A stretch of DNA of 20,996 nt from Perkinsus chesapeaki. Its lineage: Eukaryota > Perkinsozoa > Perkinsida > Perkinsidae. The first letter of the stretch is position 1, and each line of letters begins with the position of its first letter. This document shows positions 317 through 20,996 of this stretch, piece after piece. The DNA lies in contig JAAPAO010000143.1 in the NCBI GenBank assembly GCA_013115145.1, positions 1-20,996 on the forward strand, read 5' to 3'. Under the pieces are notes generated by a model, which saw only the letters and a program-made list of their open reading frames with translations, made no database searches and had not been told where the DNA came from. Both the position numbers and the translations under genes were made by a program.

Positions 317-2097
317 ATGACCGTTACACCAAATGACACTCTATCAAATATAGAGGATGTCACTAAGACGCCAGATGTGAGCTTTACTGCCGCGACTAGT
401 GCCACAAGTGTCATTAACAAAGACGAGGAGCGGTATGATGATGACGTCGGATCAGAATCGGCTTCGGTTCAAAATTTAGTAATATAAAATTCTCTTATAG
501 TATCTTTTATAGTGCGCACCAGGTAACCTTTGTTAACAGTACTAGTTCAATTGATGATAAAACAACAGCCACAACACCATCAAATGCAAGGAGGAAGCCT
601 TTACCGTTGGCACCTATTTTTGATGACTCGGGATCATTCACACTAGGGGAAATGCTAGAGCCAGATACCAAGGTGATAGGGGTGGTGACACGCTGCCTGG
701 GGATGATATGACGTATTTGCTTGGTTATCGAACATAGTAATATTCGGGACCTCGCGGAGATTTTATCGAATCTGGGTGGAGGGTGGGTATTGACTGGATG
801 AATGGTTCATCTGCTATTTTATAGGGAATATGTTGTATTTTCGCAGTACATATAGATCCTCAGTCGGGCACTAAACGAAGTAGTAGGGATAGGAACTGAT
901 TGCACTTCCTTTAGGCTGGCGGCAGACATCCTCTCCGTGTTGGAGATAGGTTCTTCGTATGTGGTGAAGGAAGTATCTTTGCTCCTCAAGGTGGTAGTGT
1001 ATTAGCTGATACGATAGAAGAATGGCCATTATCTGATGGTCTGGCTCAGAAGGGTGTTGATTGGAGTGTCTGTGAATGGGAGGTAATAACAATATTAAAT
1101 CACACTTAATGACACTTATTTCTGTAATGATGCTGGCTTCGTTCGCCATGGCCTTTCGACATGTGTCGGTAAAGGTAGCACAAACCTTGCATAGTATTAT
1201 TGACAATAATAATGACAGCTCCACTAACGATGCTTACAGATATTCTTATCCCAAACTTCACCGCTTACTGCTTGGTAGCCATCATCCTCTAAGAGGCATA
1301 AACCGCTCGTTGGGGAAATTTGTGACGCAAATTTTTATGGTTGGGCTTGGTCGACTGATACCTCATGTACGATGGTGCACCAGTTCGTCAGGGATTCTCC
1401 GGAGTTATTATTTCATACCCTATATGCTGAACTCTAACGCTTGTTCGATTAATAATGTGTGTAATGAGTCTGATGAAATGGGGAATCCTATAAACCCTGG
1501 TCTGTTAGGCTCTGTGGTAGTGATTCGATAAGATTGAGTGGTACTGGCTTTAGGTAGCGGCTGTGTCCGATAATCCCCCAATATCACCAGCACAACAATT
1601 GGCATCTAGCCAGCAGTTAACAGATAGATTTGTGCCATCTTGGATGCAAATGCAGGTAATGACAGGTTTCGGAGGCGACACTTGATAGAAGAGCCAGCGG
1701 TTAATGGGGCACGTTTTGGTCGAGAATATATTACGCTTGGACGTGAAACGAGGAGCCAGATTTAATATTTTATCGATCTTATTTGATATCGAATTCAATT
1801 TCGGTCAAAGTTGAATGGAGAAAATATATCTAAAAATAAAACTGCGGAAGATTCATACAGGGTGTGAGTGGAGCAGCAATGTGATGCTAACCTTCTCGTT
1901 TTCTTATATTCCGCATCCCCGTTTTAAATATAAGGAAGTATTCAGTTAAGTAGGATTCAATCTCTCTCAGTGTTGGTGTGCCTGCCTTGCCAACCAATAG
2001 GGCCTTTAGCCCTGAATCAAGGCATGTGGAATTTTGCGATCAGATTTCTTCGAATTTTCTCTCGGGCGGTGCTTTCTCGACTATTAATAGACTGACT
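317..2097 (+). CDS. N-terminal exons of the channel gene, unrecognised domain
   Basis: Candidate exons are 317-432, 540-672, 915-1082, 1279 to about 1434, 1554-1655, 1689-1809, 1861-1944 and 1971-2097. The first ATG (317) opens an acidic, Ser/Thr-rich tail. Exon 540-672 is Ser/Pro-rich and ends in EPDTK. Exon 915-1082 contains RVGDRFFVCGEGSIFAP, faintly like the GD...EG start of IP3R N-terminal beta-trefoils, but the match is too weak to name. Exon 1279 encodes FYGWAWSTDTSCTM and runs into TAA at 1435 without an obvious donor. The 1944/1971 junction does not close in phase. I see no clear signal peptide or membrane helix. It could be a diverged IP3R N-terminal domain, another sensor domain, or in part a separate upstream gene. 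Confidence 0.5.
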
Positions 2098-5000
2098 GTT
2101 ACCCCGGCCAGAACGCCCCATGGTTGTTGATTTGTTTCCTTTAGACTGTCCACCCTCGTCGAGTTGTTGCTGCTCTTGAGAGGAGTAACCCTTCGATGGT
2201 GACTGATAAATATATAGAGCAATTGCTGTTACACGAGTTCGAGGCTGATGCCAGTATCAAGTTCATGGCGGTGGCGTTCGAGCCATACGTGTTTGAGAAT
2301 CGGGCAAGATACTGCAAGCTGGGTGATAGGAGTAAAGCAGAGCAATCAAAGGAACAGGAGGTGGCAGAGGCGGAGTTTTATCAATGGATTCCACCACAAG
2401 GACCGGATTATACACTGGGGGAGCTGTAATATGGTGTGGTGGTAGAGCGCAGGGTATTTATGGGTAAGAGCCTGGTTCGATCCCCGGTGAATGTATTCTT
2501 CGTTGGGCATTATGGATACATTTGCACCGTTATAGGGATTACTAGTGGATTTGACATGTTGGCTAAAATCGTGGAATACAGTTGCAAACGAGGTTATTTG
2601 CGAAGTTGTACTAGGATTTAACTTAATAACTAATTATTGCTATTATCATCACCAACGGTATTAAAGCTTCTTACGTTCTTCCGTTTGTACGGCATCACTT
2701 CCACCTATGCGATTGGGTAGTCTGAGGGGCTTATTTTTATTCCTCTATCATCATTGAGTGTATTTGGGATACTGGGGTTGTTGTTACTGTGAATAGTGTA
2801 GTATACTCATTCGCGAGTGGACTTTTTGCTCTACAGGGAAAGCATTGCATCCGCTCAATGCTTATATCGACCAGCACTGTTCGGTCGTATGTCAGTTACG
2901 TTGAAGCCAAACGTCAGGGCCGAGGGGTGTGGAACAGTTACAGCGACGAAGGGGATTTTCTGAGCTATGCTGTGCCATTTTATTGGAGAAATGCCTTTGC
3001 AGGTGTGGTGACTTTGGATACTCAATTGAAGGTAATAATGACAGGAATAATAGCGAAGAGTGATTGGGTAGGCGGCAGAGATGAAGTCAAGTGAAAGGAG
3101 CGCTAGGATATCCAGGAAGACAGACGATGATGGATGCACAAATAGTCAAATACATTCGACACATCTTACGGCAGCTCAAGCAGACCAGCTGGCAGACTCG
3201 CTGGCCCAGTCGGCTATTAATTTAGCGGCGCATTTAGCGGAGCGAAGCAAACCGTTGGATAGGGAAACGTTGAAGGAGCTTGGTCGGGTGTATTTGGGGA
3301 GAGATCGTAGAGTGTTTGGGATGGGAATCGCCTTTGAGCCGCAGGCATATGATAATAAGGCAGCTTGGATGACCTATGCTTCACATTGTGGAAAGGAGGT
3401 AATTAAGTGGCGCGTGAAGATGGGGATTTGAGTGTAGGTATCAATTAATGGGCGAGTGACTAAAGAAGTTGTAATTGAGGAGTTTGATGGAGTTAAGGGA
3501 TCATTTTATCAAACTAATGAATGGTGATATGGGAGTAGAGGAGGGGTGGATAAGGTGCATATTACTATTCACCAGAACCCTCTTGTCTGTCGGTATTATT
3601 GGTAAAATTAGTCAGTAATATATATAATAATACACAATCTGTGGAGCGTGTCAACGCTGGGATTGGAACAATCGCAGTAGCGCTTTGATTACTTTTGAAA
3701 ATGCTGCCGAAGCGGGAGAAATTAATGTAGTTGATGAGGGAGAGATATCACAAAGTCGATCGTGGTTTTAAATAGTAAACTTGAGAACAGTGTTGATTGG
3801 TATCTTCAAGGTAGATCTAGTTATGGGGGCTCTCTTCGACGGTTTCTCGAACCATAGTCACTCTATCTTGTTTAATATAATCGAGTGTGATGCTGTATTA
3901 TATGGAAATAGGGGATTGGTGAGCGTTTGTCTTTAAGGTACAGATCATCTATACTATCATCTCGATCGCTTTGGACGGCGCCGTATTATAATGCTCATGC
4001 CGGCAAGACCTTCCTTAAGACTTTTGCGGTGCCGTTTAGGCTTCAACCGAGTGCTACTACAGCTAATACCGAGTCGGCAACAACAGGGGGAGCGGCGGGA
4101 AGGTAGTAGGGAGGGGGTATGGTGGTGTGATATGGGGGAATTACGGTATGAGATGATACTGACAATTGAATGTTAGCTTGACAATAGAAGTAAAAATTAT
4201 ATTACTATCAGCTAGCTTATAGTGTATTAGTCATCATCACATTAGGAGTAGTATATGATGGTAATGCGTCATTACTGGGACCTTAAATTAGAGCCCTGGT
4301 AATGATCATAAACACCACTACTATTGATGTGGACACCGCATACTTGATCACACTTATTTCTGTGGCAGGAGGCTGCGGAGTAGCTGCTTCTGAATTCTGG
4401 CGAAATTGTGAGCTTGTTTCCTTCAGTAGGATAGTCTAAAGCATGAAATGATACTGATAGGTGTGCATAAGTTCTATACAAATAATTAATTTTCTGCTCA
4501 TTATATAGTGTTTACCTGTACTTGAGGTGACCTAAGGTTGCAGCATCACTGCCGAGTCTGACTAGCTTAGCAGTACTAGTGTTACTGTCACTGTACCTTC
4601 CGACTTGGTGTCCCTTCCTTTAGTTTATCTGGTGTGGTTCGTCTGGACGTTGAGTATTCTGATGCGTTACATTCATTTTTTTATTACGAATCAGCAACGG
4701 GAGGGGCGGCAGCTGAGGAGCAAAGTGGCACCATTTGCTCAACCTGCGGCCATGATACTAGGTGGGTTCGGTCTGCTTCGCTCCGCTAAGGAAAATGGCA
4801 TTTTTGGTTAGTATTGCCTACTACCAGCATCCTGTATCGGCGACTAGGATATGCATTAGATGCCACTCGCTGGGGCTTTATAGTGGAGCGGAAAAACTGC
4901 ATTATCGATATGTGGATGACGCGAGGTCAGATGCTGCCGGGTCATCGATTTCGGAGGGCAGTGAAGAGTCGGTGGAAGGGGGGCCTGAGGGGGATGAAGA

Positions 5001-8000
5001 AGGCGCTTTGGAGTTCGTAGAGGCCTGTGATAAATATAGGCTATGTGTTAGTCGATATAGGAAAGAAGGGGAGGAGCTGGAGATGGGAAGATGCGCGCAG
5101 TTCAGGCATGTCGCTACGGGAAAATTATTGTGTGTAGATGTCTCTGTGAGTAACGGAGAGCACGGTATATACCAACATTGTCTGGAGGCGACGGATTGCT
5201 ATACGCAGGGCAGCCCGGGGACATGGTTCAGAGTGCTGCAAGCTGAGCAGAGCGATTGGGACGAGCTGGCCCGGCATAAGATGGCGAAGGAGGCGGCGCA
5301 GACGGCACGTTTGACGCCGAAACGGTTCGAACATTCGGTGTCTCAGGATGATGATAATGAAGGCGGCTTTAATGATAGTGAGGAGAATCATAGGCTTTGT
5401 AATTGGGCGATTGTACGGAAGCAAATGACGGACTCGGGGCTGCTGAAGGCTGGTAAGGATTATGCCAAGAATTCTGGGGGACGGTCGGCGGCGGTGAGGG
5501 TTGGGGGGAACAGGAACGAGAGAGCAGGAGCGGTGGTGATAGAATCGATGTCCTGGGGGGCGCGATGTGGTCCGATATTTGCTAGGAAGATAAGGAGTTA
5601 CCGGGAGACTGATACTAAAAGTGATCCGGGCAGGATTTGGGAAAGAGCTGTTAAGGAGGCGGTTTGGAGGGTCGATAATTTCACTGATGATTCTGAGGTT
5701 TTGGTGCAGTTTAGGAATTTACTGCAACCGTGGGAGGAGGCAAGGGTAGGCGATGGGAGGGACATCTTGGTTCGGTCCGTAATCGTATACTTCCATACTT
5801 GATAAAAAGCGATTATCCAATTGGATAAAACTTCTGAGTTGGAGCAGCTCCCAATTTTGTAAAATATTATTATATCATTTTACACCTCTCTACGTTATAC
5901 AGTATTAACATTGGTAAAATGGTTCTGTATTATTTGTGTTATAGCTTTCTATTATTATATACTCGTCTCCTCTTTTTCATTGTAGATGTATATATTTTTC
6001 AGGCCCCTATAGGGCTATTGGTGAGAGCGTCGGTGGATATGGGTGCATTGAGTGCTATACTGAAGCATCAGGGAAGCTCTAGTAAAGGGAAGTAAGCTGG
6101 GTGGTGTTAGCGGGCTAACAGCAATAGTGGCTTTCTGTGATTCCTTCCGTCTCGGAAGAAGGGTATTGAAGCATGAAAATTTGGTATGATGTATTATTAT
6201 TTTTATAAAGCCTTTCCAGATGTCTGCCATTCTGAAGTGGTTCTATCATTATTACCTTTGGCAGTTTGATAATTGTTATAACTGTTATATACGTATACGT
6301 TTGGGTATCAGTGTGCAGCAACAACGCTGCTCTACCACAGCCCAGCTCCTCCTGTAGTCTTCCAAGTTGAATCTCATAGTACAAGATGATATAGTGCATC
6401 ACTTCCTTCTTCTTCTCCGCAGGCTCCTGGCATGCCTTATCCCCTCGCTGCATTCTGACACTGTTAACGCCATATCGATCAAGCTATGGCAAGTCTTGCC
6501 GGGCTCGATTGATGCCGTGGCGGCGGTGTGTGCTCGGAGATGCTTCAATATATCACAGGCCCAGGTAGGTATCTTATCGCACTGTGAAGATTTTGAAGAT
6601 ATCTCAGATGGAAAGGCTAGTAGAGGTCACATTCAACACTGAGGAGAACTCGCTCTTGATGAAGGGGGCCACGGCGATCAGTAACGTGTGCCGTAGATCG
6701 AGACGAGCCCAAAGGATGGCTGTGGATAATATCTGCAGCAATCATCTATTCTTGGATAAGCTCAGAAGTGGCATTGAAGGTGTGGAGGGGCTTTGCTGAA
6801 TTGCTGTAGAAGCTAAAGATAAATATTGTTGAAAATACTGAGCGTTGTGATGTGAAATTGTAAAAACGAGTATCAGAATATGAACGGCGAAGATGAAATC
6901 TCAATCGATCAACTTCGAACAGAATTTTTGGAATTGAAGAGAATAATACTTGTACAAAACGGTGATAGTTTGGGGTTAGTGCCGCGGCGGTTCATATTGA
7001 CAGTCAATAATCGACTGGCGATCCTCATGGACAGGAGGCAGAGCTTGTTAGTCGAATTAATAGAGAGATCTTGCGATCTTGCTCTCACTTGCATTTCCTC
7101 AGGAGAACTAGGAGCGACATCGCTATTGCAAGCCCAAGTGTTAGTAGGAGATCTCGCGGAGCACAATCCAGAAACGTCGACGCATCTGATGGGTGTATTG
7201 GATTTGGAACTGTCATCGCTTCTACAGGAGTTACATAGGGCCATGCAGAGCTGCTTTTTGAGCCGGGCGGAGGCCGCTGGGGCGTGTGTGGCGGTGAGCG
7301 GGATTCCCAGGATGATTTTAACGCTTTTCGTGGATGTCTGTGAGGTGGGGTGGAGTCGGAAGGAATTGGCATCGACGACGTATGTGGTCGATAAGGATCG
7401 AGCGATGGAGCAGTATGCTAGTGGGACGATAGGATTAACATGGAAGAGGAAAGGAGTGGATAGAACGGTTGAAAATATGCAGATTGATACCACTGACGGA
7501 CGGAAAAGGCTATTAGATCTGTTGTTGGGATTCGTACATAGGGCGGTTTATCAGCCAGAGGTCAACGACGCTCTTTATGCAGCTTTGGAGCTGATTCATG
7601 CTGTCACTGTTAATGATATGTATAATGATGCTGGTGACAGGCTGGCTACTGTAAGGGAGCTTATTCATGTTGCCAGTACTGAGCAGTTTATTACTGGAAG
7701 TGAAGAAGTGGTTCAGAGGAGGGTGGTGAGTGGTAGAAGGTGCAAAGTTGAGGCGCTGAATGTGCTGCATTCGATTAAGGATCTGCAGCTTCACGAGAGA
7801 GTGCTGATGGTTGTGGCTGGCCAGGGCGCGGAATCGATTGGAGATGCGTTGATGGAGCCAGGGTTGAATTTGATAGAAAAAAGCTTCAAAGCGCTCCATA
7901 GGACGACCGACCCGAGCCTCGAGGAGAGCCTGGCGAGTATGTTGTTGAGACTGCATGTCACTCATACGGAGCTGAAGAGGTCACTGCTGAGGGTGCACTA

Positions 8001-11000
8001 TGTGGAGACGGGGCAAATGGATTTGCTGAGTGATGCTCAAAAATGGACTATTGAATTGGCGAGGATCTTGGACGAACCAGAGATAGATGTATTGGCAGCG
8101 GCGAGGGCGTCGGGGCAGTTGAGAGCTAGTTTGGTACCGGATGGACAGTATGGACTGACGAAGTAAGGGAGGAGGGGGCATGAACTTGGCAAGCTATAGC
8201 TATTATTAATAATGATTCTAATAGTCATTTTTATTATTAATAATGATTCCGATATTCATCCGCATTCATACTTTGTGCTCAAATTAACTCCTCTCATTAA
8301 TCCCTATAAAATCATATTATTGGATATATTTTGCATAATTTATCTGAATGTCTACAGGTCTACCGATCTCTACGTTGCCCTTGGAGTCCACGAGCGTCTG
8401 CTTCAACTGCTGAAGGTCCCATACCTGGGAATAGCGGTCTGGGAGAACTGTTATTCGACACTTACAACTATGGCACATGCTACCAGTTATCGTACTGTCA
8501 TCAGAAGGTTGGCCAGAGAGTTCCCGTTGTATCTCAAGCACGCTGAGGAGGACATAAGAGGAGCCAATAGGCTTTGTATTGAACTGCTGTGTGCTAATAA
8601 GGAGTTGGCGGCAGAATGGTAGGCGATGGGGAAATGCAGGAAAATTGCAGGAAAAAATCAGGTACGAGCAATATGTAAGCTCGTCGTTGAGGATACTGTC
8701 TAAGCGGCCGATGGCGGTGGAGATACAGGCATTGAGGACGCTATTGGAATGCCTGGATGCATCCTTGGTTGATAGCGGCATTCGATTGACGATCGCTAGA
8801 AGCCTTTGCGAGATGCCTAATGTTCTTGGGGATCTCTATGGGGCTATATCTAGAGGTAAAGTTGGCGGAAGTATGGTATAATTAATTTGTTGTCGGTAGC
8901 ATTGATTTTTGCTTGTGGCTATGTATGTGCGGAGGAAAGGAAATTTGGCGGAACTCCGGTTATTCTGCGCGAACGACAGTCGGCGAGGAAGTTGTAGAAG
9001 TAGATAAATGTAGCAGTGATGTTTATTACGAACAACTATAGTATCGAACAAATAGATAATGTAATAGGATTTCAGTAAAATATGTAATTAGAAATATATA
9101 CCAACGGTAGTACGCTATACCGACGGGTGAAACAAGATGGAAAAGTGTAGACGCTCTTAGACTTGGATCGAACAGCTCGTTCCTTTTCTATTGAATCTTC
9201 TATACAGATGAAGAAAAACTGCCAATATTCGTCCGCACTGTAATTTTGTAGGATATTTTTGATGTTAGAATGATGTCAGGTAGCCCAGAAGCGATGCACA
9301 GTCTGGTTAACCAACTGAACACTGGAAATCCTCGCTACTATGTGGAGCTGCTTGACTTGTTGAGAGTGTGTGCTACTGATGATGCCGAGGCAGTTGTGGT
9401 GACTGATTCTAATGATGTTACACAAACAACTGTAGAGACTAGGAGGAAGGATGGAAGGGTAAGTGTCAGAACGTTATAGATTAAAGGAGATGATTTCGAT
9501 TAGTAATTACTGTTATATATTGAATGTTTTCCTTCTTTTTTTTCACGGGCAGCAGACAGAAGCCAGTATAGGAGTATAGCTGTGGCGGGCTCAGTCCCTC
9601 GTAAAAGGCGGGGCGAAAGGCCCTATGAAGTGTAGAGGTGAAATTATGCCCCATAAAGACAATTATGCCCATATGAAATAGTAGGAAACAGTTTTACTAA
9701 ATACATTATATATAAGTTTGCCTTTGGAGTGCCAGTGTGTGGTGAGCTGAGATAGATGTACACAACAGTACAGGCCTCTGGTGGTGAATATTACAGTACA
9801 TGGGGTCCCGCGAGAAATGTGCTCCCTTGTGAGCTTAGCAGCTTACTTGTTAACTATATTATGTTTGCTAAGCTCTTTGCTACTTGCTGTGACATTCTTT
9901 ATCGGATTTGATCTTCTCAGAATAATCTCGTTAACATCTTGCCTTACACATTTCCTTCAGGCCTCGGCGCTGCTAGGGAGGGTTCTGCCAGTGGACAATA
10001 TGGTTAAACTGTTGCTGTCATGTCACAGAGTTGGAGTGAAGGCGGCTTTATTGGACTTTATAAGGTAACCTTCATCCTTGGGGACATCGATTATAAAATA
10101 CGGCGGCTATGTTACCTATAATGGTGTATTTAGGAGATAGTTTATTATGATAAAACAGTATGAAAGTAGATTATTAAATGATAAAATTGAATTAATAGCA
10201 CTCGAATGCGTTAGTAATAATACTACTTAAGCATGCAAAGGAAAGTAGTTGCACCCAGACAGGTAAGTACTCATGTCACTGTCGGGCAGTCTGGGAAACA
10301 TGTCAGGCAGGATGGAAGCAAGTATCCACTGCGTGTTCGACGCCGAACTCCGCACTGGTTGGCCACTATCTGCTTGTACAAGAAAAGTCGTCACTGTTAC
10401 AAAGCTACGGAGCTTAAGCGCCATCGGTTAGCACTCATGCGCCTAACACGTCACCTCCGTGTATTCATTAATCATAGTTGTATTAATATTATATAATGAT
10501 GTTGGAAATAAAGTATACTGATAGGATTCTTCTCTTTGAGTTTATTGTTTCCCATTCAGATTGGTCCACACAGCCGAGGCTGTCCTGGCCCTCCCCGCTG
10601 AGGTGATTGCCGAAATAATGTCGGATTTCACCGCTACCATCAACGACTGTCTCGAGGCGTATTGTAAGCAAAAGTCGGTATACGCCAGCGGTGGGGCAGC
10701 TAAGGAAGGATCTGGTGAGTATGGGGAGGATCGAGAGGATGATTTCGCAGAATCATTAAGAGGATATCTTAATGGCACAAAGATTCTCACGGCAAATACT
10801 TCGTCTTTTCATTGCTCGGAAAGATTCTTCTCGCACCCGAAAGAAAAGATTCTTTTCGTAACAGCGCCCCTCACCTCTCTGTACGGTGTTTGCCTTAACA
10901 AATCTAGTAAATCCCAACTTTAGTAATTTTTTTCTTGACTTGTCCCTTTTCAGATGCTCAGCAAGGTCTCGATGATGGTCGAGCCTCCACGGTTCTATCA

Positions 11001-14000
11001 TCATGCGTTTGGCTTGGCAAGCACAAGGAGTTAGCTACCCCGCGGGCTTATGTGTTTAAATGTATCATACCATTTTTAACGTGTCTTTATCACACTGGAG
11101 GAGTACTGGATGCCACTGCTAAGGGAAAGTGAGTTGGTGGGAGAATTTATCTTCTTAAGTCTCATAAAGATTCTAGTTCGACTAGGAACTATATTACTAA
11201 TTATGGTTATTTACATTACAGTGCGCAATAAAACTTCTACTGTATCAAGAGCGTTTTCCTGCGATTGTTTTTATAGAGTATTTCGTAAGTTCACTAAAAA
11301 AATTTCTGAAAAATTTTACTGAAATATCTTATCTAGGTATGTGCACGTTCTTGTCAACTTTGTAAAATTGGGAAAAATGGGGAAAAAGGGAAAAATGGGA
11401 AAAATTGGGGAAATTTCGGGAAAATTTCGCAATTTTTCCAACTCCTAGCTTTATCTTATGAGGAGCTTTTTTGCTGGGCTAACAATATTCCGGTTCTTAG
11501 GATGGTACCTGTGTTGCGAGCTTTGGTGGTGCAGAAGGCCTCTGCCGAGTTGACAGCTCGATTGTGTGAGTGTGCCGAATTGAGCAAAGATGACAGTGGT
11601 GGAATAACTGCGTTGTCGGCATGCCTGTTACATATCACTGATCCTTGTCATGGATCTATGGTTAATCAAAATACGGTAAGCGTTATGATGACGCAGATCG
11701 ATTCTATTGCGTTCCGTTGGGCAAGTTCAGTAGAAATAAATTTAGTATCTTCCGTGTCTTGTAGCTTCTTGAAATATTCATCGGCATTGTAAAAGTAATT
11801 AACCTCTAACGCTTCTCTATGCTATCCTACATTTCTCATTGGTTCTGGGATGGGACGGAGCACCACCATCGTACGAGTGCTTCTGCCCCTGACTAGAACG
11901 TCCCAACGCCGCCCACTATTATTGAGCAACAACTGAGCACGTGCCGCCCTTTGTTTACAATTTCATTTTGGTATTGATGGAGGCGCACCCCCGTTGAGGG
12001 GCAATGGTTGCTGGAGCACATCATACTGTATGCTGTTCTCTAATAGGCCACTTGAGCGTTCGGTGAATATGAATAATATTTTTTCAATAGACTGTTTCAT
12101 TACAGTGCGACATTCCCGCCGGCGTGTGTCGCACTACTATGAAGATATCCTGTCATCGCCTTAGGTCATCCGTTGTGACCAGTCTCTACTGTCAAGTACA
12201 ATCACGCAACTTGAGAGGTATCGAAGACTGTGTACGAGGCCACGGTTGTTGAGGAAGCTGGGCAACACTGAAAGGGAGATCTGTGCGCAGTCGGATGAGC
12301 GCGCGCATCGACAAGTAGGAGAGCTGGTCGCGGGTTCGATCCCTGGCAGCGGCATTTTTAGAGAATTACGGAGTCCATAACGTGGCAGTCGGAGAGTGAG
12401 CAACTTAATAATCTCACCAATCTGTTCCGAGACGAAGGTGGCCATTATGAGTGGGATTGTTTGAACAAGATTATTAGAGTATTGGTTAGAACATCTGCTG
12501 CTGCAAGGTGAGGTCGTGGGTTCGATCCCCGGGTAGTGTATTTTAATATACGATAGAAACAGTAGAGAGCTCCTTACAGTCAAGAGTTCTTTATGTATAG
12601 TTCGCAAGGGCTCCGTTGCACTTCCTTTATGTCTTATATTTCATCTGTCCACTACATACCGAAGAGCTAAGCTCGTGCGAACAGTACGAAACTCTCCTTC
12701 ATAAGGGCTTTGCTTTGTTTTTACCTTTGGACGTTTTTTCACCCTCTACACTGCGCGTCGGATTCTTGTGAACCACTTTGAAGATTAAGCTAACTCGGGG
12801 ACGCACGTGTCTGCACTGGGAGTCATCTCGCCTCGCAGGAATGTGTCTCGCCCCTGAGGGTTGAAAACTATTCTTAACATAATGGAACTTCATTGGCAAA
12901 TATGTTCCTAGAGTAAAAGGACTCCAAACGCGTTCCTTCTGGGACCATTCATCATTCCCCTATGACTCTCTGTAAATTGTTTACCTTCACGTCCGTCCGG
13001 GAAATACATTATTATAGGTCGGCTCGGTCAACCGTTATCGATCCTGTTGACGAGGATGCTGCCCATGACGACGAGGAGCTTGTGAACTGTCAGTGGATCA
13101 AATCGAATAAGACCAAGTTCACCCGGCTCTATTTAAAAGCTCTGTTGCCTCTTGTCAAAGTAAAGACGATAGCAATAAGGCTGCCATGAATTTTCGGTTC
13201 AGGCTCGCCGGAACGATTTCGTCAGGCGAACTGAAGTTTGCTGGATGCTCGCTCATCTGCTTGGCAGCCACTCTAGGGCGATATTATTGGGCGCGCTGGA
13301 ATTGGCCGTGTTGTGTGTTGAAGGGGGGTACAAGAGAGCACAGGTGAGCGAATTCGGGGAGGGGCTGGGAATGGAAGGAGGGGAAATATGTGTACTTAGT
13401 TTTATTAGATTTTTGGGATGAAAAATTGAGAGGTTGGTATTAGCAATTTGTTAGATGCGTTACAGTGGTTGGTAGTGGAAGCCCTCGTGAAGGTCAGCCG
13501 GGTGTAGTTGTATTTCGCTGTTCACTATTCGCTTTATTCGACCTGTTGATTGGAATCCGAAAATAATGTATTTGTGAAGCAAACTGTGCCACTTTGCATA
13601 ACCAAGCATCTCCGCTTCATGTTTGCCAAATATGGTGGATTTTGTGCAGAGCCTGTATTTGCCGTTTTCAGTCGCAACTTTGGCAGCAACCGGCAATCAC
13701 AAAGCTTCGCTTCCTCCGGAACATAAGAGATGTTTTGAAGCTGCAGCCGCAGAGTTCAACCGATCCACGGAGTTTAATAATCGACATTGGTGCTGCCAGT
13801 CGGCAATATGTGCCGGAGAGGGACCAATGGAACTTGGTCCTCTCGAGTCTAAGGCAAGTGGGGGTGTGTATTGAGGAACTGCGGCAGTTGGTTGACATAT
13901 TTAACAATGTTAAAACGACTAGTGATTAAGGAAGTCAACTTAATATACTTGATCACTATTTGTTTGGTCTGCTATGAAAATGTTATCGGTAGGGGTCATG

Positions 14001-17000
14001 GGGGTTCTGGGGTGGGAAATAGGCTTGGATCTTCTCCAAATCTTCTGCCTGGATGTGCATGTGGTGAACTATATAAGAGCTACGCGCCTTGCGAGCCATG
14101 CGATGATGGATTGGTCTGGTGCCTCGCCTTTTTGTCGCGATGGGTGGTGCCTATAGAGGGTATCTATGACAGCTTATTAAGATTGGAAATCGACCTATCG
14201 TTCCAGTCGAAATATTTCTCAGCAAAATTTCCCGTGAAGTTGGGAATATTTAATTGAAGCTGAAACGGTTTTCCTGCGTTTGGGAACGGTCCCGATATTC
14301 CTCCCACCCCTCGCATATGTTGTATTTCAGGTTCATTAAAGAGCTCTGCGAAGGTCACTACGCTCACTGGCAGAATGGTGTTAGAATGCAAGCGTCTGTG
14401 GGCGGCGGCAATAACAGTGGTAACTCCTCCGCATGCAACCTTACGGTTGGTGTATGTGATGCTTTGAGAGATAGCGCCTGGCTTATACCTATGCTTAACA
14501 GGTAAGTAGTGAGGAGGGGGCTTACTGACTATGAGAAATGAAAACCCGAAACCCGAAAACCCGGTTGCACGCTCCTTCATGTAGTGCATTTAGCAATTTG
14601 GGAGGCGATAGTAGAAGCTCCGGTCTAGGCGACAAAGTTGACACGAGTATTGGGTTCGCAATAGTAGTTATCAAATTAGCTATTGCGGAGGGCAAGTCTG
14701 CGTGGATTTTGTTTTGGGTAGGTAGTTTCCTATGTTATTTCAGGTATGATGACTTTGTGAAGCGAGATGTTAGATTATTGGCTAAGATGTTATCTGTTAC
14801 CGTATCATTATTTTGCACTATAACTGAGCTGTGTCAAGGGCCATGTGAAGGGAATCAAAGTGCGGCTGCTAGGAAAACTAAACTGCTTTCCTCGGTTAAT
14901 CATATATGGTAAGTTGGATTAATCAACTTATGAAAATTCGAGAAAATTTCAGAAATTTCTGGGAGGTTTTGTGGCTTTGAACTGGAGCAGCATGCAGGAT
15001 ATGCGAAAGGGGGAAATTTCGGTATTTTTTGGAGTCCCACGGACTTGATTTTCCTAGGAAGAATTGAAATGACAAGCCAGTGACGCCTGGGTATTCACAG
15101 GACTGAGCTTTAGTGTTATGATTGATTATTAGGTTGGCTATTAATAAGTCCAGCGAGCAGGAAGAGTCGCCAGCACCACCAGGGGGAGTGAATCGGTGGT
15201 TATTGAAGAGGAGTGCTACTAGTTTATTAACTATACCGGAGCATGACGATCTTACCACACCGTTATTGAATCCGGATAAGGTGGATGATGGACCCGTTCT
15301 CAGGGATGGGACGCATGTCAGGGATAAAGCTGCTGTTGTTAATATGTTACAGGTAAGCCGGTTTTTGTGGCTTACTGTTATTATTTTGAATCTACTAGTA
15401 TTTTAGGAAGGCGGCATTTGGAGTATTATTGATCATTCTTCTGTGGTGTTTTGAACGGAAGATTTCTGGCAGTGTTCCCAATTTTATTTTTATATTTAAT
15501 TTTCTCACCGTTTTGTATTTCAACATTTCGCTATATTGCTGAAGACTAAATTAAGACTAATAATACTGCTTGTCTGAGAATATGTTTACGAATTACTCAT
15601 AGTAAGCCCACATCGCAAGCCGGCACTCTACAGAAATTAGGAAATTTGCACAACTGTATTTTACATTGCTTGATTTCGATGATTTCGCTGATTCCCATTA
15701 TCTTTCTTCTGCCGCCTCTTGCGTCGATCACGTCTCTCTCTTCAGATGGTTATTCTTGATACTCTATCATCTTTACTAGAAGGTGGTCATGGTAGTGATA
15801 CTGTACGACTTAACGCTGATACCATGGCTATATCATTGGATACTAATATGTTGACTAAGTTGTTGGAAGGAGCCATTAGGAAGGGACAGGCGTCATTGGC
15901 AGCGAGGTGAGATTGGCGAATAATACCTCACTGTTCTGCATTATTTCTTTATTTATTTCCATTCATCTTTCTCTATCAATGTTATTTTTGAATCTTTCGA
16001 TGATAATTTTTTTCATCAAATGTATCGTATAGACTTTCACTTTGCTGTTTTTTTATTTATTTTGTCCACTAGGTTTCGTCTGCCATGTTTCTGCCTGTTT
16101 AATATTACTGCTCGGCTTTGCTGAGTCTTACGTGGTGATTTTACTTATATTTTTTTCGCAGTTTTCTTTGTGATGGTCAAAAGAGTACTACTGTTATATA
16201 TCAGATACATGATACTAATAGACTCAATTACGAGGCGCGTGACTATGAAGAGCTCGGCTGCTAGTAAATGGGCATCTTATAATAATACTACGCCCATGCT
16301 GAAGGCAGTTCGAGAGAGCCTGCAGGTGAGGAAGGGTTACTGCTGCTCGTGAAGCTGTCGTTGGCGTATATTATACGAGTAGTTGCATCGCTTCTTAATA
16401 GTGAAACGGTTGATCGATTTGTTGTTAAGCCCTTGTAGTATATACCATCCAATGTTCGTGTCTCAGACGACCGGAGAGGTCTCAGGGTGGTCGATTCGCA
16501 TATAGCAAATTTAACAAACAGTAGCTTTGAGAATGTTTGTTCATAATTCCAAATGTTGGAGTTTTGTGGCGCGTGAGAATCCTAGGCTGTGCTCACTGAG
16601 ATCGTGATATTGAATGAGCGCTCATTGTCAGGATCGCATCGGTTCGGTTGAAATAGTCAACTGTCGTGATCAACTAGAGCATATTTATTTCATAGTGCCT
16701 GACTCGGTGCTCAGAAGGTAACCTCGAAAATATCTTTGCTTTTTGACTCGTCTTCCCAGAGCCCAAAGTGATGAATTCGAAGCGTTAAAGGAGAGAGTGA
16801 TGCATGATGTCCCTCGAGACAATCCGGTGCAGAAGTGTCAAGTGAGGAGCTCCGGAGGAGGCCTATCTCACTGGCTGCTGCTGCTGGTTTTGATACAGGG
16901 TCGCTTCTCATCTACTTTCGACAATGTTCGTATACCGTCCAATTTCGGCATCGCACGCCGGCGCTCTACGGCGAGAGATAACTAAAATTGGGCGACGTAC

Positions 17001-18721
17001 ATAACAAATTCTTCGCATACACTGTACATCATATTGTTTTTGCTACTACTTACCCTGCTTGTGATACTGCTCACTGTTACCTCTCCTACTTTGCAATTCG
17101 TTATCTTTTCTCCCTTGTAGAGTACTAAGCAACTTTATATGAGCAGCCCTTCGTTGGCTAAGTATGAGCTTTTAATGACCAAATGTCACTTCCAAACTAG
17201 AATATTTTATTTGATCTCTCCGTGTTACCTTATTTCTCTCCATCTCAGTCCTTCCTGGACATGATAACCGACTCGCTGGTATGGGAGCTGACGGCCTGTG
17301 ACTTTATGAAAAAGCGTCGTATAGTGCTACTTCAGCCTCAACTGTTGGACGCCACATTCCTCTTGTCAATACTACTCAATGCATTGGCTATTATTATTAA
17401 CACTACAGACAGGTAAGGTCGTTTGGAGGCCTGTGGTGACGTTAATAAAGCTGAGGGGCGATCCCGTTATAGCGTTTCGTAGAGGGGATTCCCTGATTCT
17501 GTGGGCTGAAGCGCGAGAGAATTCGAACCGAAGGACACACGCGGTGGCATTTTTAAGAACTTCATGTGCAATATTGTCCGTCTTGGTGGATAATGATACT
17601 GAACACGTTGAAGCCGATATTATTGAGCTAATAAGTGTCATGTTATGCTCTTCTGCATCTTAGTACTGGTTGTCACTCCAACCTCTGACGTATCTTTCCT
17701 ATCATCATCAGGTTCCATCCACTTTGGGCGTCCCTATTATGGTTGCTCGGTCTAGTGCATGCTGTCCTGTCGATGGCGAGGTTTATATCGTGTACGGTAT
17801 CAAAGTTGCCTATGAACTTATTAAGACTTGAGCCGGACTTGGCCCATAAATTGGACGAAGAGCAGGTAAGTGTAGCGGAGCGAAGCGTTTCATGTTTTAC
17901 ATTTTCAGGATTTGTCGCTGCTTGTGAAGGCGGGCGTTCCTCTGCTATGGTTCATTCCATGGTATCATTTGACGTATCTTTTGATGTCGATAAGTGCATG
18001 GTCGTTTGCCGGAGAGCATGTTTACTTTTTTCATCTTTTTGACATAATTCTTCAATCCTCTTTATTGAAGGTGACTCTCCGTTCTATCCAGAGCCAAGGC
18101 CTCTCCCTCGCCTCGACAGGGATGCTCTGGCTCCTCATAATGTACTCTTTTGCCATGGTGGGCCACAGGCATTTTCGCGGTGATTTCCCAGAAGGAGAAT
18201 GCCGTGACGTGACGTCTTGTATCGCTTTTGTTATGAACTTCGGCTTGAGGGCTGGAGGAGGCCTCGGGGACTATTTGAAAGGTGGCGAGGAGGGCCACAG
18301 TGAAGGGTGGGGTAGAATGGTTTTTGATACGATATATTTTATTTTGAGTACTGTGGTTATGGCTAATATAGTGAGTGGTATTATTATCGATGCTTTTGGT
18401 GAATCTCGCGATAAGAGGAATGAAGTGCTACTGGACCAGAAGAACAACTGTTTTGTTTGCTCGCTCGCGGCAGCTAAGTTCGATAGAGCGGATCGATTGA
18501 CAGGATTTAGGCATCACTACAAAAGGATGCATAATATGTGGGCGTATGTTTATTTTGTGGCGTATCTTAAGTTGAAGGACCCCACAGAGCTCACCGGTAC
18601 GGAGGACTATGTCAAGGCAGCAGTCGAGCGACATTCAATTGACTGGTTGCCGGTTTTAAGAGCATCTATGGGAGCTGGGGAGAGGAAGGAGCTTAGAGAA
18701 GATATTGGGGAGAGTTCGTGA
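317..18721 (+). CDS. Cache-MIR-RIH-channel protein (IP3R/RyR superfamily)
   Basis: This is the whole gene in my hand-built model. Well-phased exons are 540-672, 915-1082, 1554-1655, 1689-1809, 2145-2425, 2896-3031, 3072-3398, 3438-3523, 3938-4102, 4624-4761, 4848-5745, 6003-6091, 6423-6564, 6608-6781, 6877-8162, 8358-8618, 8680-8855, 9280-9458, 9961-10064, 10560-10714, 10954-11128, 11222-11284, 11337-11361, 11449-11675, 12165-12217, 13018-13159, 13203-13343, 13672-13908, 14331-14501, 14744-14908, 15133-15352, 15746-15906, 16162-16325, 16632-16717, 16760-16841, 17249-17412, 17712-17865 and 17909-18721 (TGA at 18719). Most junctions use GT-AG and keep phase. Unresolved places are about 432-540, 1279-1554, 1945-1971, 11128-11222, 13908-14331 and inside 16162-16325. 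The product should be a homotetrameric intracellular Ca2+-release channel of about 2,900 residues, near the usual 2,700 of IP3 receptors. The start at 317 is provisional. The C-terminal identity is near certain; membership of the 5' exons in the same transcript is well supported but not proven. Confidence 0.8.
2145..3031 (+). CDS. Cache domain 1 (exons 2145-2425 and 2896-3031)
   Basis: Cache domains bind small ligands such as amino acids, carboxylates or amines, usually outside the cell, in chemoreceptors, sensor kinases and alpha2delta calcium-channel subunits. Here an N-terminal helix (VVAALERSNPSM onward) leads to FMAVAFEPYVFENR, which matches the Cache core 'GMgiAFEP'. After an intron carrying a tRNA-like element, the second exon encodes YVEAKRQGRGVWNSYSDEGD, then LSYAVPFY and FAGVVTLD, the three canonical Cache strands (W-x-x-Y-x-D, Y-x-V-P-F, G-V-V-T-x-D). 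The phase-2 junction at 2425/2896 closes exactly and uses GT-AG. The next junction (3031/3072, intron of 40 bases) is in phase with Cache 2. The Arg of the known amino-acid-binding motif R-x-W-Y is not seen, so no ligand can be named. Confidence 0.85.
2426..2895 (+). other. Intron, 470 bases, between the two halves of Cache 1
   Basis: It runs from the donor CT|GTAATATG to the acceptor GTATGTCAG and carries the tRNA-like copy 1. The acceptor was chosen over CTCTACAG (2836) because only it keeps the Cache frame. Confidence 0.75.
2432..2498 (+). repeat. tRNA-like element (SINE head), copy 1
   Basis: It lies in the intron 2426-2895. The sequence shows an A-box-like TGGTGTGGTGGTAGAGCGC and a B-box GGTTCGATCCC followed by GTATTCTT. 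D-arm and T-arm pairing is partial, but the anticodon stem and acceptor stem do not pair, so it is not a working tRNA gene. The best reading is a tRNA-derived SINE or decayed tRNA copy. Confidence 0.6.
3072..4761 (+). CDS. Cache domain 2 (exons 3072-3398, 3438-3523, 3938-4102, 4624-4761)
   Basis: This is a second, more canonical Cache domain. Exon 3072-3398 gives a long N-terminal helix (ADQLADSLAQSAINLAAHLAE) and RRVFGMGIAFEPQAYDNK. Exon 3438-3523 continues with a beta segment ending QTNEW. Exon 3938-4102 starts with the Y of the E-W-Y motif, then LWTAPYYNAHAGKTFLKTFAVPF, matching the 'W-x-x-P-Y-Y...Y-x-V-P-F' strand pair, followed by a Ser/Thr/Ala-rich loop. Exon 4624-4761 closes the fold with SGVVRLDVEYSDAL. 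All four junctions are GT-AG and phase-consistent. The tail of the last exon holds CSTC, the first half of a possible zinc knuckle completed by the next exon. Unspliced, the frame would stop at TAA 4787-4789, so a separate Cache-only protein is the alternative. Confidence 0.85.
3678..3764 (+). CDS. Possible cassette exon inside Cache 2
   Basis: The 414-base intron 3524-3937 contains an open, protein-like stretch (ALITFENAAEAGEINVVDEG) flanked by an AG at 3676-3677 and a GT at 3765-3766. It is 87 bases long (29 codons), begins and ends in phase 2, and would splice into the E-W-Y motif without breaking the frame. The donor is poor. It could be an alternative exon that changes the ligand pocket, or chance. 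Confidence 0.3.
4103..4623 (+). other. Intron, 521 bases, inside Cache 2
   Basis: It runs from the donor AAG|GTAGTAGG to the acceptor CTTCCTTTAG. It is AT-rich with no gene or element recognised. Confidence 0.7.
4848..5745 (+). CDS. Zinc-knuckle linker and MIR domain exon
   Basis: This long exon starts in phase 2 after the Cache exon. Its first codons give RICIRC, completing C-x2-C-x6-C-x2-C across the junction. An acidic linker follows (Glu/Gly/Ser-rich, about 4915-5020). Then comes a MIR-type beta-trefoil segment: EMGRCAQFRHVATGKLLCVD is the counterpart of the IP3R strand 'LFRFKHLATGxYLxxE', and TWFRVLQAEQ follows as in MIR repeats. The rest is charged and then helical. The IP3-contacting loop of animal receptors (T-T-G-R before the MIR strand) is not visible. 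I end the exon at GTAGGC (5746) because the next exon is then in phase. The open frame continues to a stop at 5802 if that donor is not used. Confidence 0.8.
6003..8855 (+). CDS. RIH (RYDR_ITPR) helical-repeat exons
   Basis: Exons 6003-6091, 6423-6564, 6608-6781, 6877-8162, 8358-8618 and 8680-8855 encode an almost wholly alpha-helical, armadillo-like region. This is the place and character of the RIH domains that carry gating movements in IP3 and ryanodine receptors. In 6608-6781 the stretch NVCRRSRRAQRMAVDNIC resembles the animal IP3R helix ending D-Y-R-K-N-Q-E, with basic residues near two of its IP3 contacts and no Tyr; this alignment is by eye. Exon 6877-8162 is 1,286 bases, the longest. 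The 61-base intron 8619-8679 and the 193-to-195-base intron after 8162 have clean GT-AG ends and exact phase. Antisense open frames over 6909-7965 are shadows of this exon. Confidence 0.8.
8856..9279 (+). other. Intron, 424 bases
   Basis: AT-rich sequence between the donor G|GTAAAG and the acceptor GATGTCAG at 9279. The flanking exons join in phase 1. I see no gene or mobile element in it. Confidence 0.7.
9280..11675 (+). CDS. Central RIH/helical exons
   Basis: Exons 9280-9458, 9961-10064, 10560-10714, 10954-11128, 11222-11284, 11337-11361 and 11449-11675 continue the helical solenoid. 9280-9458 carries NPRYYVELLDLLRVC, matching the conserved RIH 'NPRxxxxxLELLxVC' helix that follows the second RIH start. 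9961-10064 and 10560-10714 are amphipathic helices. Exon 11337-11361 is only 25 bases; without its intron the frame also stays open through a G/A-rich stretch, so it may simply be fused to 11449. The junction from 11128 (strong donor GTGAGT) to 11222 is one base out of phase. An earlier donor (GTACTG, about 11107) would restore phase, as would one missing G in the assembly. Confidence 0.7.
9459..9960 (+). other. Intron, 502 bases
   Basis: The donor GTAAGTG and the acceptor TTCCTTCAG are strong. The pyrimidine-rich 3' half gives a spurious hydrophobic frame (9781 onward). Nothing else is seen. Confidence 0.75.
10065..10559 (+). other. Intron, 495 bases
   Basis: The donor is GTAACC and the acceptor CCCATTCAG, with the phase closing exactly. 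The sequence is AT-rich with no recognisable element. Short open frames near 10233-10496 lack family features. Confidence 0.7.
11285..11448 (+). other. Low-complexity intronic sequence with GAAATTTC motifs
   Basis: The stretch around the 25-base exon is made of G/A runs and the palindrome GAAATTTC or GAAAATTTC, repeated (for example 11410-11430). Similar motifs recur in introns near 14939-14960 and 15013. Confidence 0.6.
11676..12164 (+). other. Intron, 489 bases, with a 30-base inverted repeat
   Basis: The donor is GTAAGCG and the acceptor ATCGCCTTAG. An 8-base perfect inverted repeat (GTGCGACA at 12105-12112, TGTCGCAC at 12127-12134) encloses a 14-base GC-rich loop. No gene is seen. Confidence 0.65.
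12165..13343 (+). CDS. Exons 12165-12217, 13018-13159 and 13203-13343
   Basis: Exon 12165-12217 is 53 bases. It is supported because it starts in phase 0 after 11675 and ends in phase 2, exactly what exon 13018 needs, with GT-AG on both sides. Exon 13018-13159 has an acidic patch (PVDEDAAHDDEELV) and a helix ending KALLPLVK. Exon 13203-13343 encodes ILLGALELAVLCVEGG, which fits the IP3R/RyR helix 'LxxxLLxGGN' found shortly before the RIH-associated domain, where the channel solenoid packs on the membrane part. Confidence 0.7.
12282..12353 (+). repeat. tRNA-like element (SINE head), copy 2
   Basis: The D-arm is perfect (GCGC AGTCGGATGA GCGC) and the B-box is GGTTCGATCCC, followed by a run of T. 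The anticodon and acceptor stems do not form. It is the first of two copies in the 800-base intron, whose B-boxes are 176 bases apart. Confidence 0.6.
12473..12540 (+). repeat. tRNA-like element (SINE head), copy 3
   Basis: It has an A-box-like TATTGGTTAGAACATCTGC and the B-box GGTTCGATCCCC, followed by GTATTTT as in the other copies. On the opposite strand copies 2 and 3 both read as PGIEP(A/T)TS, a familiar chance peptide of tRNA-type repeats. Confidence 0.6.
13344..13671 (+). other. Intron, 328 bases
   Basis: It runs from the donor CAG|GTGAGCG to the acceptor GCCGTTTTCAG. I see nothing beyond ordinary intron sequence. Confidence 0.7.
13672..15906 (+). CDS. RIH-associated region with QGPCxxNQ motif
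   Basis: Exons are 13672-13908, 14331-14501, 14744-14908, 15133-15352 and 15746-15906. Exon 13672 encodes ERDQWNLVLSSLRQVGVCIE. Exon 14331-14501 has FIKELCEGHYAHWQNGVRMQ, matching the IP3R 'xLLCExHNxxxQNxxRxQ' signature. Exon 14744-14908 contains TITELCQGPCEGNQ (QGPC codons 14835-14846), the most conserved motif of the whole IP3R/RyR superfamily outside the pore. Exon 15746-15906 gives LLEGGHGSDTVRLNADTM, the counterpart of 'LLxxxxxSxxxxxLxxxM' before the membrane part. The 13908 to 14331 step needs an extra exon or a frame change: coding-like sequence at about 13971-14160 is a candidate but does not close in phase. Confidence 0.9.
13909..14330 (+). other. Intron interval, 422 bases, with a possible missing exon
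   Basis: The flanking exons end in phase 0 and begin in phase 2, so something is missing. Two frames over about 13971-14160 are open and protein-like. Neither fits both neighbours with GT-AG borders. Confidence 0.5.
15353..15745 (+). other. Intron, 393 bases
   Basis: It has a donor GTAAGCC and a strong pyrimidine tract with TTCAG at 15745. No element is seen. CATCGCAAGCCGGCACTCTAC near 15611-15631 has a close relative in the intron near 16950. Confidence 0.7.
16162..16325 (+). CDS. Exon with apparent frame change
   Basis: The exon enters in phase 2 from 15906 and reads FLCDGQKSTTVIYQIHDTN and on to YEARDYEELG, then meets TAG at about 16263. The +1 frame from there reads SSAASKWASYNNTTPMLKAV and ends at the donor CAG|GTGAGG in the phase the next exon needs. 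A single-base indel, real or from assembly, near 16240-16263 would join them. Position in the protein is just before the conserved helix that leads to the membrane domain. Confidence 0.55.
16326..16631 (+). other. Intron, 306 bases
   Basis: It runs from the donor GTGAGGA to the acceptor CATTGTCAG. No gene or repeat is recognised. Confidence 0.65.
16632..16841 (+). CDS. Pre-membrane exons 16632-16717 and 16760-16841
   Basis: GSVEIVNCRDQLEHIYFIVP matches the strongly conserved IP3R segment 'AQIEIVRxDRTMEQIVFPVP', which lies about 50 residues before the first membrane helix and couples the cytosolic part to the pore. The second exon (QSDEFEALKERVMHDVPRDN) is the counterpart of the following charged 'ERDEQGSKI' stretch. 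Phases 0 to 2 to 0 close exactly over a 42-base intron. Confidence 0.88.
16842..17248 (+). other. Intron, 407 bases
   Basis: The donor is GTGAGGAG and the acceptor CCATCTCAG. Its 5' part gives a hydrophobic open frame (to 16985) that I take as read-through, since the next exon is in phase only when the intron is removed. Confidence 0.7.
17249..18721 (+). CDS. Ion-channel domain of the IP3R/RyR-type channel
   Basis: Exons are 17249-17412, 17712-17865 and 17909-18721. The first ends in membrane helix S1 (ATFLLSILLNALAIII). The second carries S2 (WASLLWLLGLVHAVLSMARF). The third holds S3 and the S4-S5 region (LFDIILQSSLLKVTLRSI), S5 (TGMLWLLIMYSFAMVGHRHF), a short luminal loop with Cys, the pore helix with filter GLRAGGGLGD, S6 (DTIYFILSTVVMANIVSGII) and the C-terminal zinc-finger linker. 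The loop between S5 and the pore is far shorter than in animal IP3 receptors and lacks their long glycosylated insertion. The protein ends 30-odd residues after the linker, without the long coiled coil of vertebrate IP3R. The TGA at 18719-18721 is the stop. Confidence 0.95.
18254..18271 (+). other. Selectivity filter GGGLGD
   Basis: The six codons read GGGLGD. The family consensus is GGGVGD in IP3 receptors and GGGIGD in ryanodine receptors, so the Ca2+-permeable filter with its final Asp is intact. Confidence 0.95.
18449..18532 (+). other. C2H2 zinc-finger linker domain
   Basis: CFVC (18449-18460) and H...H (His codons at 18512-18517 and 18530-18532, in RHHYKRMHNMW) match the IP3R linker domain CFICG...HIKEEHNMWHY, which holds a zinc ion just after S6 and transmits cytosolic movement to the gate. 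All four expected ligands are present. Confidence 0.93.
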
Positions 18722-20189: not shown

Positions 20190-20859
20190 GAGGTGGTTGC
20201 GGCGGCAGTGGGAAGGGTGTTGAGTTGTACGTTGTTAATGGGGAGGTATGTAGGCAACTATATTGGCCATCAGGCTTGTCCTGTCTTTGTGTCAGTCTTG
20301 GGAAAGTCCTGTCTTGTATCCATGGAGGAGTCCTCATTTTCACACTAATCGCAGGCGCTATAGGAGGTTCTCGTGGATCTCTGAAAGCACAGACGTTGGT
20401 TGAATTGCCTTCCACGTGCGTTCCCCTCATCGCTGGGCGTGTCTATCGCCTGTGGAAGGTTTTAGTCTTTCTTTTATCACGTTGCTGTTGCATATGTATA
20501 AGTATAGCGAGTGAGATGAGGTTACGGGAAGCATGGACTACTGGGTTGTTTTTCTTTGTATTTTTAAATAACAGTTGTCGGTTCTTCGAAGTACCTGTCT
20601 TTGTATTGCTGATGATGGTGATATAATGTCATTGATATTCACATTGTTGTTGTTGAGAAGGTGGAGGAGGTAGTGGTATAACCTTTCCCTTCCTACCACT
20701 GCTGCTGTGAGCTCTTGTTACTTGAATGGTGCTTGATGTTGTTTGAACTCCGGGAAGATGGAATATGACTCTAAATCAATACAGCTGTCAACATGACAGC
20801 ACATGTTAAAGTTAGATATTAAATTGATCAGTCTGCCGTGATAGGTTGTGCATTAGGCA
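20190..20859. other. 3' region after FAM32A, no assigned gene
   Basis: A + strand open frame of 133 codons (20225-20626) is hydrophobic and Cys-rich and resembles nothing I know. One stretch inside it (20356-20458, ...VPLIAGRVYRLWK, preceded by an AG and followed by GT) could be an exon of a further gene, but nothing confirms it. The minus-strand frame 20167-20430 is Pro-rich and unsupported. Confidence 0.35.
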
Positions 20860-20996
20860 ATAGGTCCCAAGGTATGGTGGTCTGGTTTAGTAGTGCGTAA
20901 TGCTATAGGTCCCAAGGTATGGTGGTCTGGTTTAGTAGTGCGTAATGCTATAGGTCCCAAGGTATGATGGTCTGGTTTAGTAGTGCGTAATGCTAT
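20860..20996. repeat. 45-bp tandem repeat, three copies, cut by window edge
   Basis: The unit begins ATAGGTCCCAAGGTATG and ends AGTGCGTAATGCT. Copies are at 20860-20904, 20905-20949 and 20950-20994, followed by the first two bases of a fourth. Copies 1 and 2 are identical and copy 3 has one G-to-A change. The array continues past the window. Confidence 0.95.

Follow-up and report, generated by a model that had tools for sequence, protein, structure and literature searches.

A predicted calcium channel gene of Perkinsus chesapeaki with tandem Cache domains and an IP3R/RyR-type pore

Gene model and domain content

The first 20,996 bases of contig JAAPAO010000143.1 of Perkinsus chesapeaki (GenBank assembly GCA_013115145.1), here called the window, carry on their plus strand a gene predicted to code for a channel of the IP3R/RyR superfamily with two Cache domains in its N-terminal region. 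The contig, which opens with the window, is 63,686 bases long, and the assembly searched comprises 35.4 Mb in 884 contigs. A single hand-curated model (317-18721, 40 exons) specifies a protein of 2891 residues with no internal stop, and its 39 introns (39-521 nt) have GT-AG ends and remain in frame from the Cache domains through to the pore (Table 1), as a preliminary description of the locus had proposed. The model combines evidence of codon use, splice sites (GT-AG) and homology, with fixed-parameter gene-finder runs as a guide, and was finished by hand; the output of a first automatic gene finder with retraining consisted of many tiny exons and was dropped. One acceptor, at the junction between the Cache region and the channel, was corrected later, and the Pfam scan used an earlier version of 2879 residues with the acceptor at 4848, from which the final model differs by a shift of 12 positions beyond residue 586. 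The short exons 13466-13492, 16205-16335 and 16696-16717 are uncertain, and some of those between 13 and 17 kb were guessed. The preliminary description had confined the fused segments to 2145-5745, an interval that proves too narrow: the gene start probably lies upstream of 2145, and the model begins at the candidate start ATG 317. In exon 915-1082, the motif LRVGD presumably resembles the start of IP3R/RyR N-termini, as judged by eye. An acceptor-like AG at position 290 (ttcttattag), 27 bases 5′ of ATG 317, could be a leader trans-splice site.

Table 1. Features of the Cache-channel gene (window coordinates; residues of the spliced protein)
Feature	Position	Strand	Evidence or remark
N-terminal exons (residues 1-160), 5′ of the first Cache	317-478, 523-672, 915-1082	+	model only
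Cache1	1554..3031: exons 1554-1655, 2145-2425, 2875-3031	+	PF22673 at residues 218-340
Cache1 leading helix	exon 1554-1655	+	model only
Cache1, homologue-profile matches	2151-2363 and 2885-3028	+	
Cache2	3072..4761: exons 3072-3398, 3438-3523, 3776-3799, 3938-4102, 4624-4761	+	PF22673 at residues 412-522
Cache2 strand GVVRLD	in exon 4624-4761	+	
Cache2, homologue-profile matches	3084-3389, 3960-4040, 4610-4753	+	
Junction intron, Cache2/channel	4762..4811 (50 nt)	+	best acceptor 4812 by homologue score; end 4847 in the preliminary description
Exon of the A/suppressor-type domain, second half (GRCAQFRHVATGKLL...GTWFRV)	4812..5745	+	profile match 4966-5256, E 6.6e-10
Channel middle, 18 exons, presumably helical solenoid	6003..14143 (6003-6091 to 13993-14143)	+	model; some short exons uncertain
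Channel middle, weak profile matches	7519-8058, 9961-10062	+	E 0.035 and E 0.04
RIH_assoc	exons 14331-14501, 14744-14908	+	Pfam 7.9e-10, 39.0 bits, cut-off 28.5
Exons linking RIH_assoc to the membrane part	15154..16886	+	model only; 16205-16335 and 16696-16717 of low confidence
First transmembrane helices of the channel	exons 17249-17412, 17712-17865	+	profile match 17267-17389
Pore exon: filter GGGLGD, last helix, C-terminal Cys/His tail, stop TGA	17909..18721	+	Ion_trans 4.7e-13
Pore exon, homologue-profile match	within 17909..18721	+	E 2.7e-88

Both of the Cache folds that the preliminary description had read here were recovered by Pfam on the spliced protein, as PF22673 matches above the curated cut-off of 27 bits (29.2 bits, E 1.3e-6 for Cache1; 39.9 bits, E 6.5e-10 for Cache2; 1.8e-14 for both stretches combined). 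A six-frame search of the whole assembly with PF22673 returned two matches at E<=10, both in the window (2849-3037, E 0.004; 3939-4046, E 0.16) and each below the cut-off when taken singly; the control of this search matched in 4 of 14 genomes. The Cache region also matched the sensor-kinase ectodomain 3LIC (2.2e-5) and was found to have a PDC fold, and both copies match the PDC1 family. Canonical dCache_1 receptors join PDC1 and PDC2 between transmembrane helices, whereas the window has two tandem PDC1-type copies without hydrophobic flanks; dCache_1 itself (PF02743) gave no match in the window protein up to E 5.

At the other end of the protein, the IP3R-type pore claimed earlier is borne out by an Ion_trans match in the pore exon (2.4e-10 in the spliced protein), with a filter of the GGGxGD type. 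Compared with solved structures, the pore and its preceding exons were closest to IP3R2 (2.7e-42), ahead of RyR1 (5.4e-35). Since the pore of one homologue (P0007, described below) leans slightly to RyR (1.5e-45 vs 2.1e-41), the family is placed only in the IP3R/RyR superfamily. RIH_assoc (PF08454) was likewise detected above its cut-off, and its two matches in the assembly at E<=1 were the two exons of this gene, with a control that matched nowhere. Residues 1-560 of P0007 found the channel gene with both of their matches at E<=5. These assembly searches treated each exon separately and could overlook weak copies. The pore exon had one further, very weak match (E 0.155, 24%), on the minus strand of another contig (G000:C357:82445-82753) in an open frame of 808 residues, perhaps another ion channel.

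Homologues and the Cache-channel junction

The combination of Cache, RIH_assoc and Ion_trans domains was found within one chain in three public proteins, the sequences of which came from ENA and JGI. P0001, obtained by a search with the pore, has 4092 residues, is 50% identical over 94% of the query and carries RIH_assoc, PF22673 and Ion_trans, while no PF22673 was listed for the remaining four matches. A search with its Cache region yielded P0006 and P0007, which carry the same three domains together with dCache_1 below the cut-off. Inside the second Cache, the match to GPR158_179_EC (PF22572) slightly exceeded its cut-off in P0006 and fell short of it in P0001 and P0007. Because the pores of P0006 and P0007 are 87% identical, the number of independent lineages is about three, including the window. 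In an unrooted pore tree of eight proteins, based on 236 columns, a split with 97% support sets the Cache proteins, four in number, apart from the remaining four, which suggests a single origin of the fusion.

A profile of the three homologues was compared with 1005 six-frame pieces of the window and gave 12 matches at i-E<1, which without exception lay on the plus strand and followed the order of the profile, four of them weak (0.03-0.09); one reversed and five shuffled control sequences gave none. Two of the matched pieces lie on either side of the junction, at 4610-4753 (profile 457-502) and 4966-5256 (profile 519-622), and in the spliced protein a single homologue-profile match spans it. 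With this match running through the junction and three fused homologues, whose absence would have refuted it by the terms of the preliminary description, the earlier claim that Cache and channel segments form one gene is upheld, and we regard the fusion as real and conserved with very high confidence. Any of the acceptors 4791, 4812 and 4848 preserves the reading frame, with profile scores of 39.6, 51.5 and 44.7 bits, respectively; the acceptor proposed earlier, 4847/4848, is thus compatible with the frame but is outscored, and 4811/4812 is more likely to be used. Two other elements were considered at this place and set aside. A transmembrane-like stretch in frame 0 at 4566-4808 (VSLPLVYLVWFVWTLSILM), taken as a membrane helix after the Cache domains, was rejected since the homologues show that frame 2 (GVVRLDVEYSD) codes, and a CxxC-x6-CxxC "zinc knuckle" over the junction disappears when acceptor 4812 is used and has no conserved counterpart in the homologues. 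A protein search with the 4762-5799 exon had no matches.

Outside eukaryotes, one pattern scan of prokaryotic genomes found two relatives of the tandem Cache (34% and 31% identity), in Planctomycetia and Hydrogenedentota loci of metagenome-assembled genomes (L011, L012), and it is plausible that the Cache module was gained horizontally. Read by eye, these loci combine Cache regions with a Ser/Thr-kinase-like output and a membrane helix, and hold no channel; in L011, the kinase and Cache regions are in different frames on either side of masked bases. Among eukaryotes, the CaV alpha2delta subunits and GPR158/179 are also Cache-bearing and tied to calcium channels or receptors. They are extracellular, act as auxiliary subunits or G-protein-coupled receptors, and have their Cache domains outside any IP3R-type pore-forming chain. 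No report of a Cache fusion with an IP3R/RyR channel was found in the literature searched by titles and abstract starts, a search that excluded subscription papers and preprints, and a term search found neither "Perkinsus" nor "Cache" in the main text of a survey of parasite IP3R/RyR homologues (PMC3194816). The architecture is therefore likely, though not certain, to be new to the literature.

Position of the Cache domains and possible gating

The exon that follows the junction had been called a MIR exon. Pfam MIR was not detected in the window protein, and comparison with the homologues places this exon at the second half of a RyR A domain, or Ins145. Beyond Cache2 and a linker, each of the three homologues aligns with Ins145 (PF08709), starting at about profile position 91-97 and ending at 173-179, below the cut-off (22.3 vs 23 bits for the P0006 fragment), and their profile matches residues 101-194 of the RyR2 A domain (E 4.8e-6); the best 60 of 70 structure rows for the part after Cache2 were all RyR and none IP3R. 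In the window protein alone, PF08709 had no Pfam match, nor did it match the genome, where its control also matched nowhere; a 507-residue piece past the Cache domains had no meaningful PDB match (one row, E 1.4). In a database of four sequences, the best match of the equivalent window segment was to the same part of P0005 (E 3.9e-4), a channel with Ins145 over residues 35-229. The filter, RIH_assoc, the C-terminal Cys/His tail and, in the homologues, the half A domain resemble features of animal and protist IP3R/RyR, from which the window protein differs in its two Cache domains and in having no detectable MIR, RIH, SPRY or RyR repeat domains (the last two sought up to E 5). Of the Pfam domains named earlier, Ion_trans was recovered in the window protein, and MIR, RYDR_ITPR and dCache_1 were not. 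By comparison with the homologues, it is likely, although not proven, that the Cache domains lie inside the A domain. Hydropathy analysis of the window protein found no 19-mer above 1.6 before residue 1139 and no strongly hydrophobic segment between the Cache domains and the solenoid; as no membrane segment separates them from the channel, the Cache domains should be cytosolic. An AlphaFold model of residues 1-670 of P0006, made from three sequences, was poor (pLDDT 42), and its Foldseek list serves as an aside only.

Gating by a small molecule is the best reading of these sequences and one that we consider fairly probable. The Perkinsus-like alveolate gene is predicted to encode an IP3R/RyR-superfamily channel with two tandem PDC1-type Cache domains in the N-terminal suppressor/A-domain region, followed by the solenoid and then by the pore at the C-terminus. 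Facing the cytosol, the Cache domains would bind a small molecule, and their closing or dimerisation would move the A domains, which in IP3R/RyR structures surround the tetramer's fourfold axis at its top; this movement would open or close the pore to the calcium of an internal store. The classical IP3 site has probably diverged or been lost. It is further possible, with slightly less than even confidence, that these proteins represent an ancient and separate class of calcium-release channel in alveolates and their kin, in which a cytosolic metabolite (e.g., an amine or quaternary amine) acts on the Cache domains in place of IP3. Such a metabolite-opened channel would be the sole channel of the family seen in the genome by the exon-by-exon searches. 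What triggers the release of stored calcium in alveolate parasites has long been asked, and IP3 receptors that are clear as such are often hard to find in them. Cache domains are of a kind with which bacteria detect small molecules. If functional, this prokaryotic-type sensor, placed in the part of an IP3R/RyR-type channel that regulates it, would work on the cytosolic side, opposite to the usual placement of Cache domains outside the cell, and a marine protist parasite may have a calcium channel controlled by a small chemical. The Cache-channel family thus offers a concrete channel bearing a ligand-sensor module, open to expression and screening.

The state of the ligand pockets bears directly on this reading. 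The pocket aromatics and Asp common to dCache domains (W, Y/F, Y at W+16, D) are retained in seven of eight Cache domains: all six homologue domains have W, Y/F, Y at +16 and D at +46/47, and Cache2 of the window has W, Y, Y and then D past a longer loop (+63). The motif of the amine sensors (dCache_1AM), as in McpX, comprises W, Y, Y and D besides further residues, and an amine is one guess for the ligand. In amino-acid sensors (dCache_1AA), an Arg presumably stands two residues before the pocket Trp (PctA R126), and an Arg at this simple offset is absent in all eight domains.

Several observations weigh against the proposed reading or some part of it. In Cache1 of the window, Ser replaces the pocket Trp and also occupies W+16, with a Tyr one residue earlier, so this domain may not bind ligand. 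Cache domains in general are mostly extracytoplasmic. An Arg occurs four residues before the Trp in three of the eight domains, the first Cache of each homologue (YRDWEWY/YREWDWY), which leaves the register uncertain and makes an amino-acid-type Arg possible by a shifted alignment, and the structure list also holds the amino-acid sensors PctC, Tlp3, Mlp24 and PctA. Pfam found neither MIR (PF02815) nor RIH (PF01365) in the window protein. A single stretch of borderline hydrophobicity (1.66, residues 397-415), rich in Ala and Pro, lies inside Cache2 of P0006. Exons 317-1082, for which reading frame and splice sites are the evidence, had no homologue-profile match, and the segment that precedes Cache1 (about 160 residues in the model, about 90 in P0001 and P0006), where the first half of the A domain would be expected, matched neither that half nor any Pfam or relevant PDB entry (SHERP at E 1 being noise); the gene start and the insertion inside the domain are for these reasons only inferred. 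Finally, 11 of the 39 introns are shorter than 100 nt, whereas those of P. marinus (39-1622 bp, GT/AG ends) are reported to be mostly below 100 bp (PMC3101222), so some middle exons may be absent from the model.

Other explanations start from some of the same observations. The Cache domains could be degenerate or structural, serving assembly, trafficking or partner binding without ligand gating, much as alpha2delta subunits are mainly linked to channel trafficking. The lost Trp of window Cache1 and the loss of several of its DEGGG-loop residues fit this explanation, which is nevertheless unlikely, though not negligible, given pocket residues that persist in divergent proteins and in window Cache2. 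The Cache ligand might instead be a co-regulator that sets sensitivity, a role played by the suppressor domain in animal IP3Rs, with IP3 or calcium still the main agonist; the Cache domains adjoin an A/suppressor-type domain, and the pore is IP3R-like. MIR and RYDR_ITPR were, however, undetected in the window protein and in the three full-length homologues (among three homologue fragments, MIR appeared in one, at E 0.043 only), whereas P0004 and P0005 score for both and for RIH, and we consider co-regulation improbable. Translocation of the N-terminus, which would put the Cache domains in the lumen of the endoplasmic reticulum or outside the cell as in other Cache receptors, is highly improbable. 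It would agree with the majority of Cache domains, 78% of which are predicted to be extracellular (PMC4822843). The hydropathy of the window protein, without a strongly hydrophobic segment around the Cache domains up to the solenoid, speaks against it. In known IP3R/RyR, moreover, the A domain and RIH_assoc are cytosolic.

Last, the region might hold a pair of neighbouring genes, one for a Cache protein with its stop at 4789 and one for a channel that begins at ATG 4795, separated by spliced-leader trans-splicing. This arrangement is very unlikely, because the profile match continues across the junction, the fusion occurs as a single chain in three proteins and three acceptors are in frame. 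The stop (4787-4789) and the ATG exist as described earlier, but the argument for one gene from the 5-base gap is weak, because leader trans-splicing in Perkinsus makes tight spacing possible: CCGTAGCCATCTTGGCTCAAG, the P. marinus spliced leader PmaSL1 minus its first base (PMC3101222), has eight exact copies in the assembly, one on the window's own contig (G000:C50:59540-59560) and the others in seven other places, with none for the backward control.

Other observations in the window

Three GGTTCGATCC-type stretches resembling a tRNA B box, seen by eye, lie in introns of the model (about 2474-2487, 12332-12345 and 12519-12533), and neither ARAGORN nor Rfam called an RNA gene at them. On the 3′ side of the channel gene, one gene-finder run placed weak chains of small exons at 18933-20673. 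The window ends in three copies of a 45-bp unit (20860-20996) that are 98% alike.

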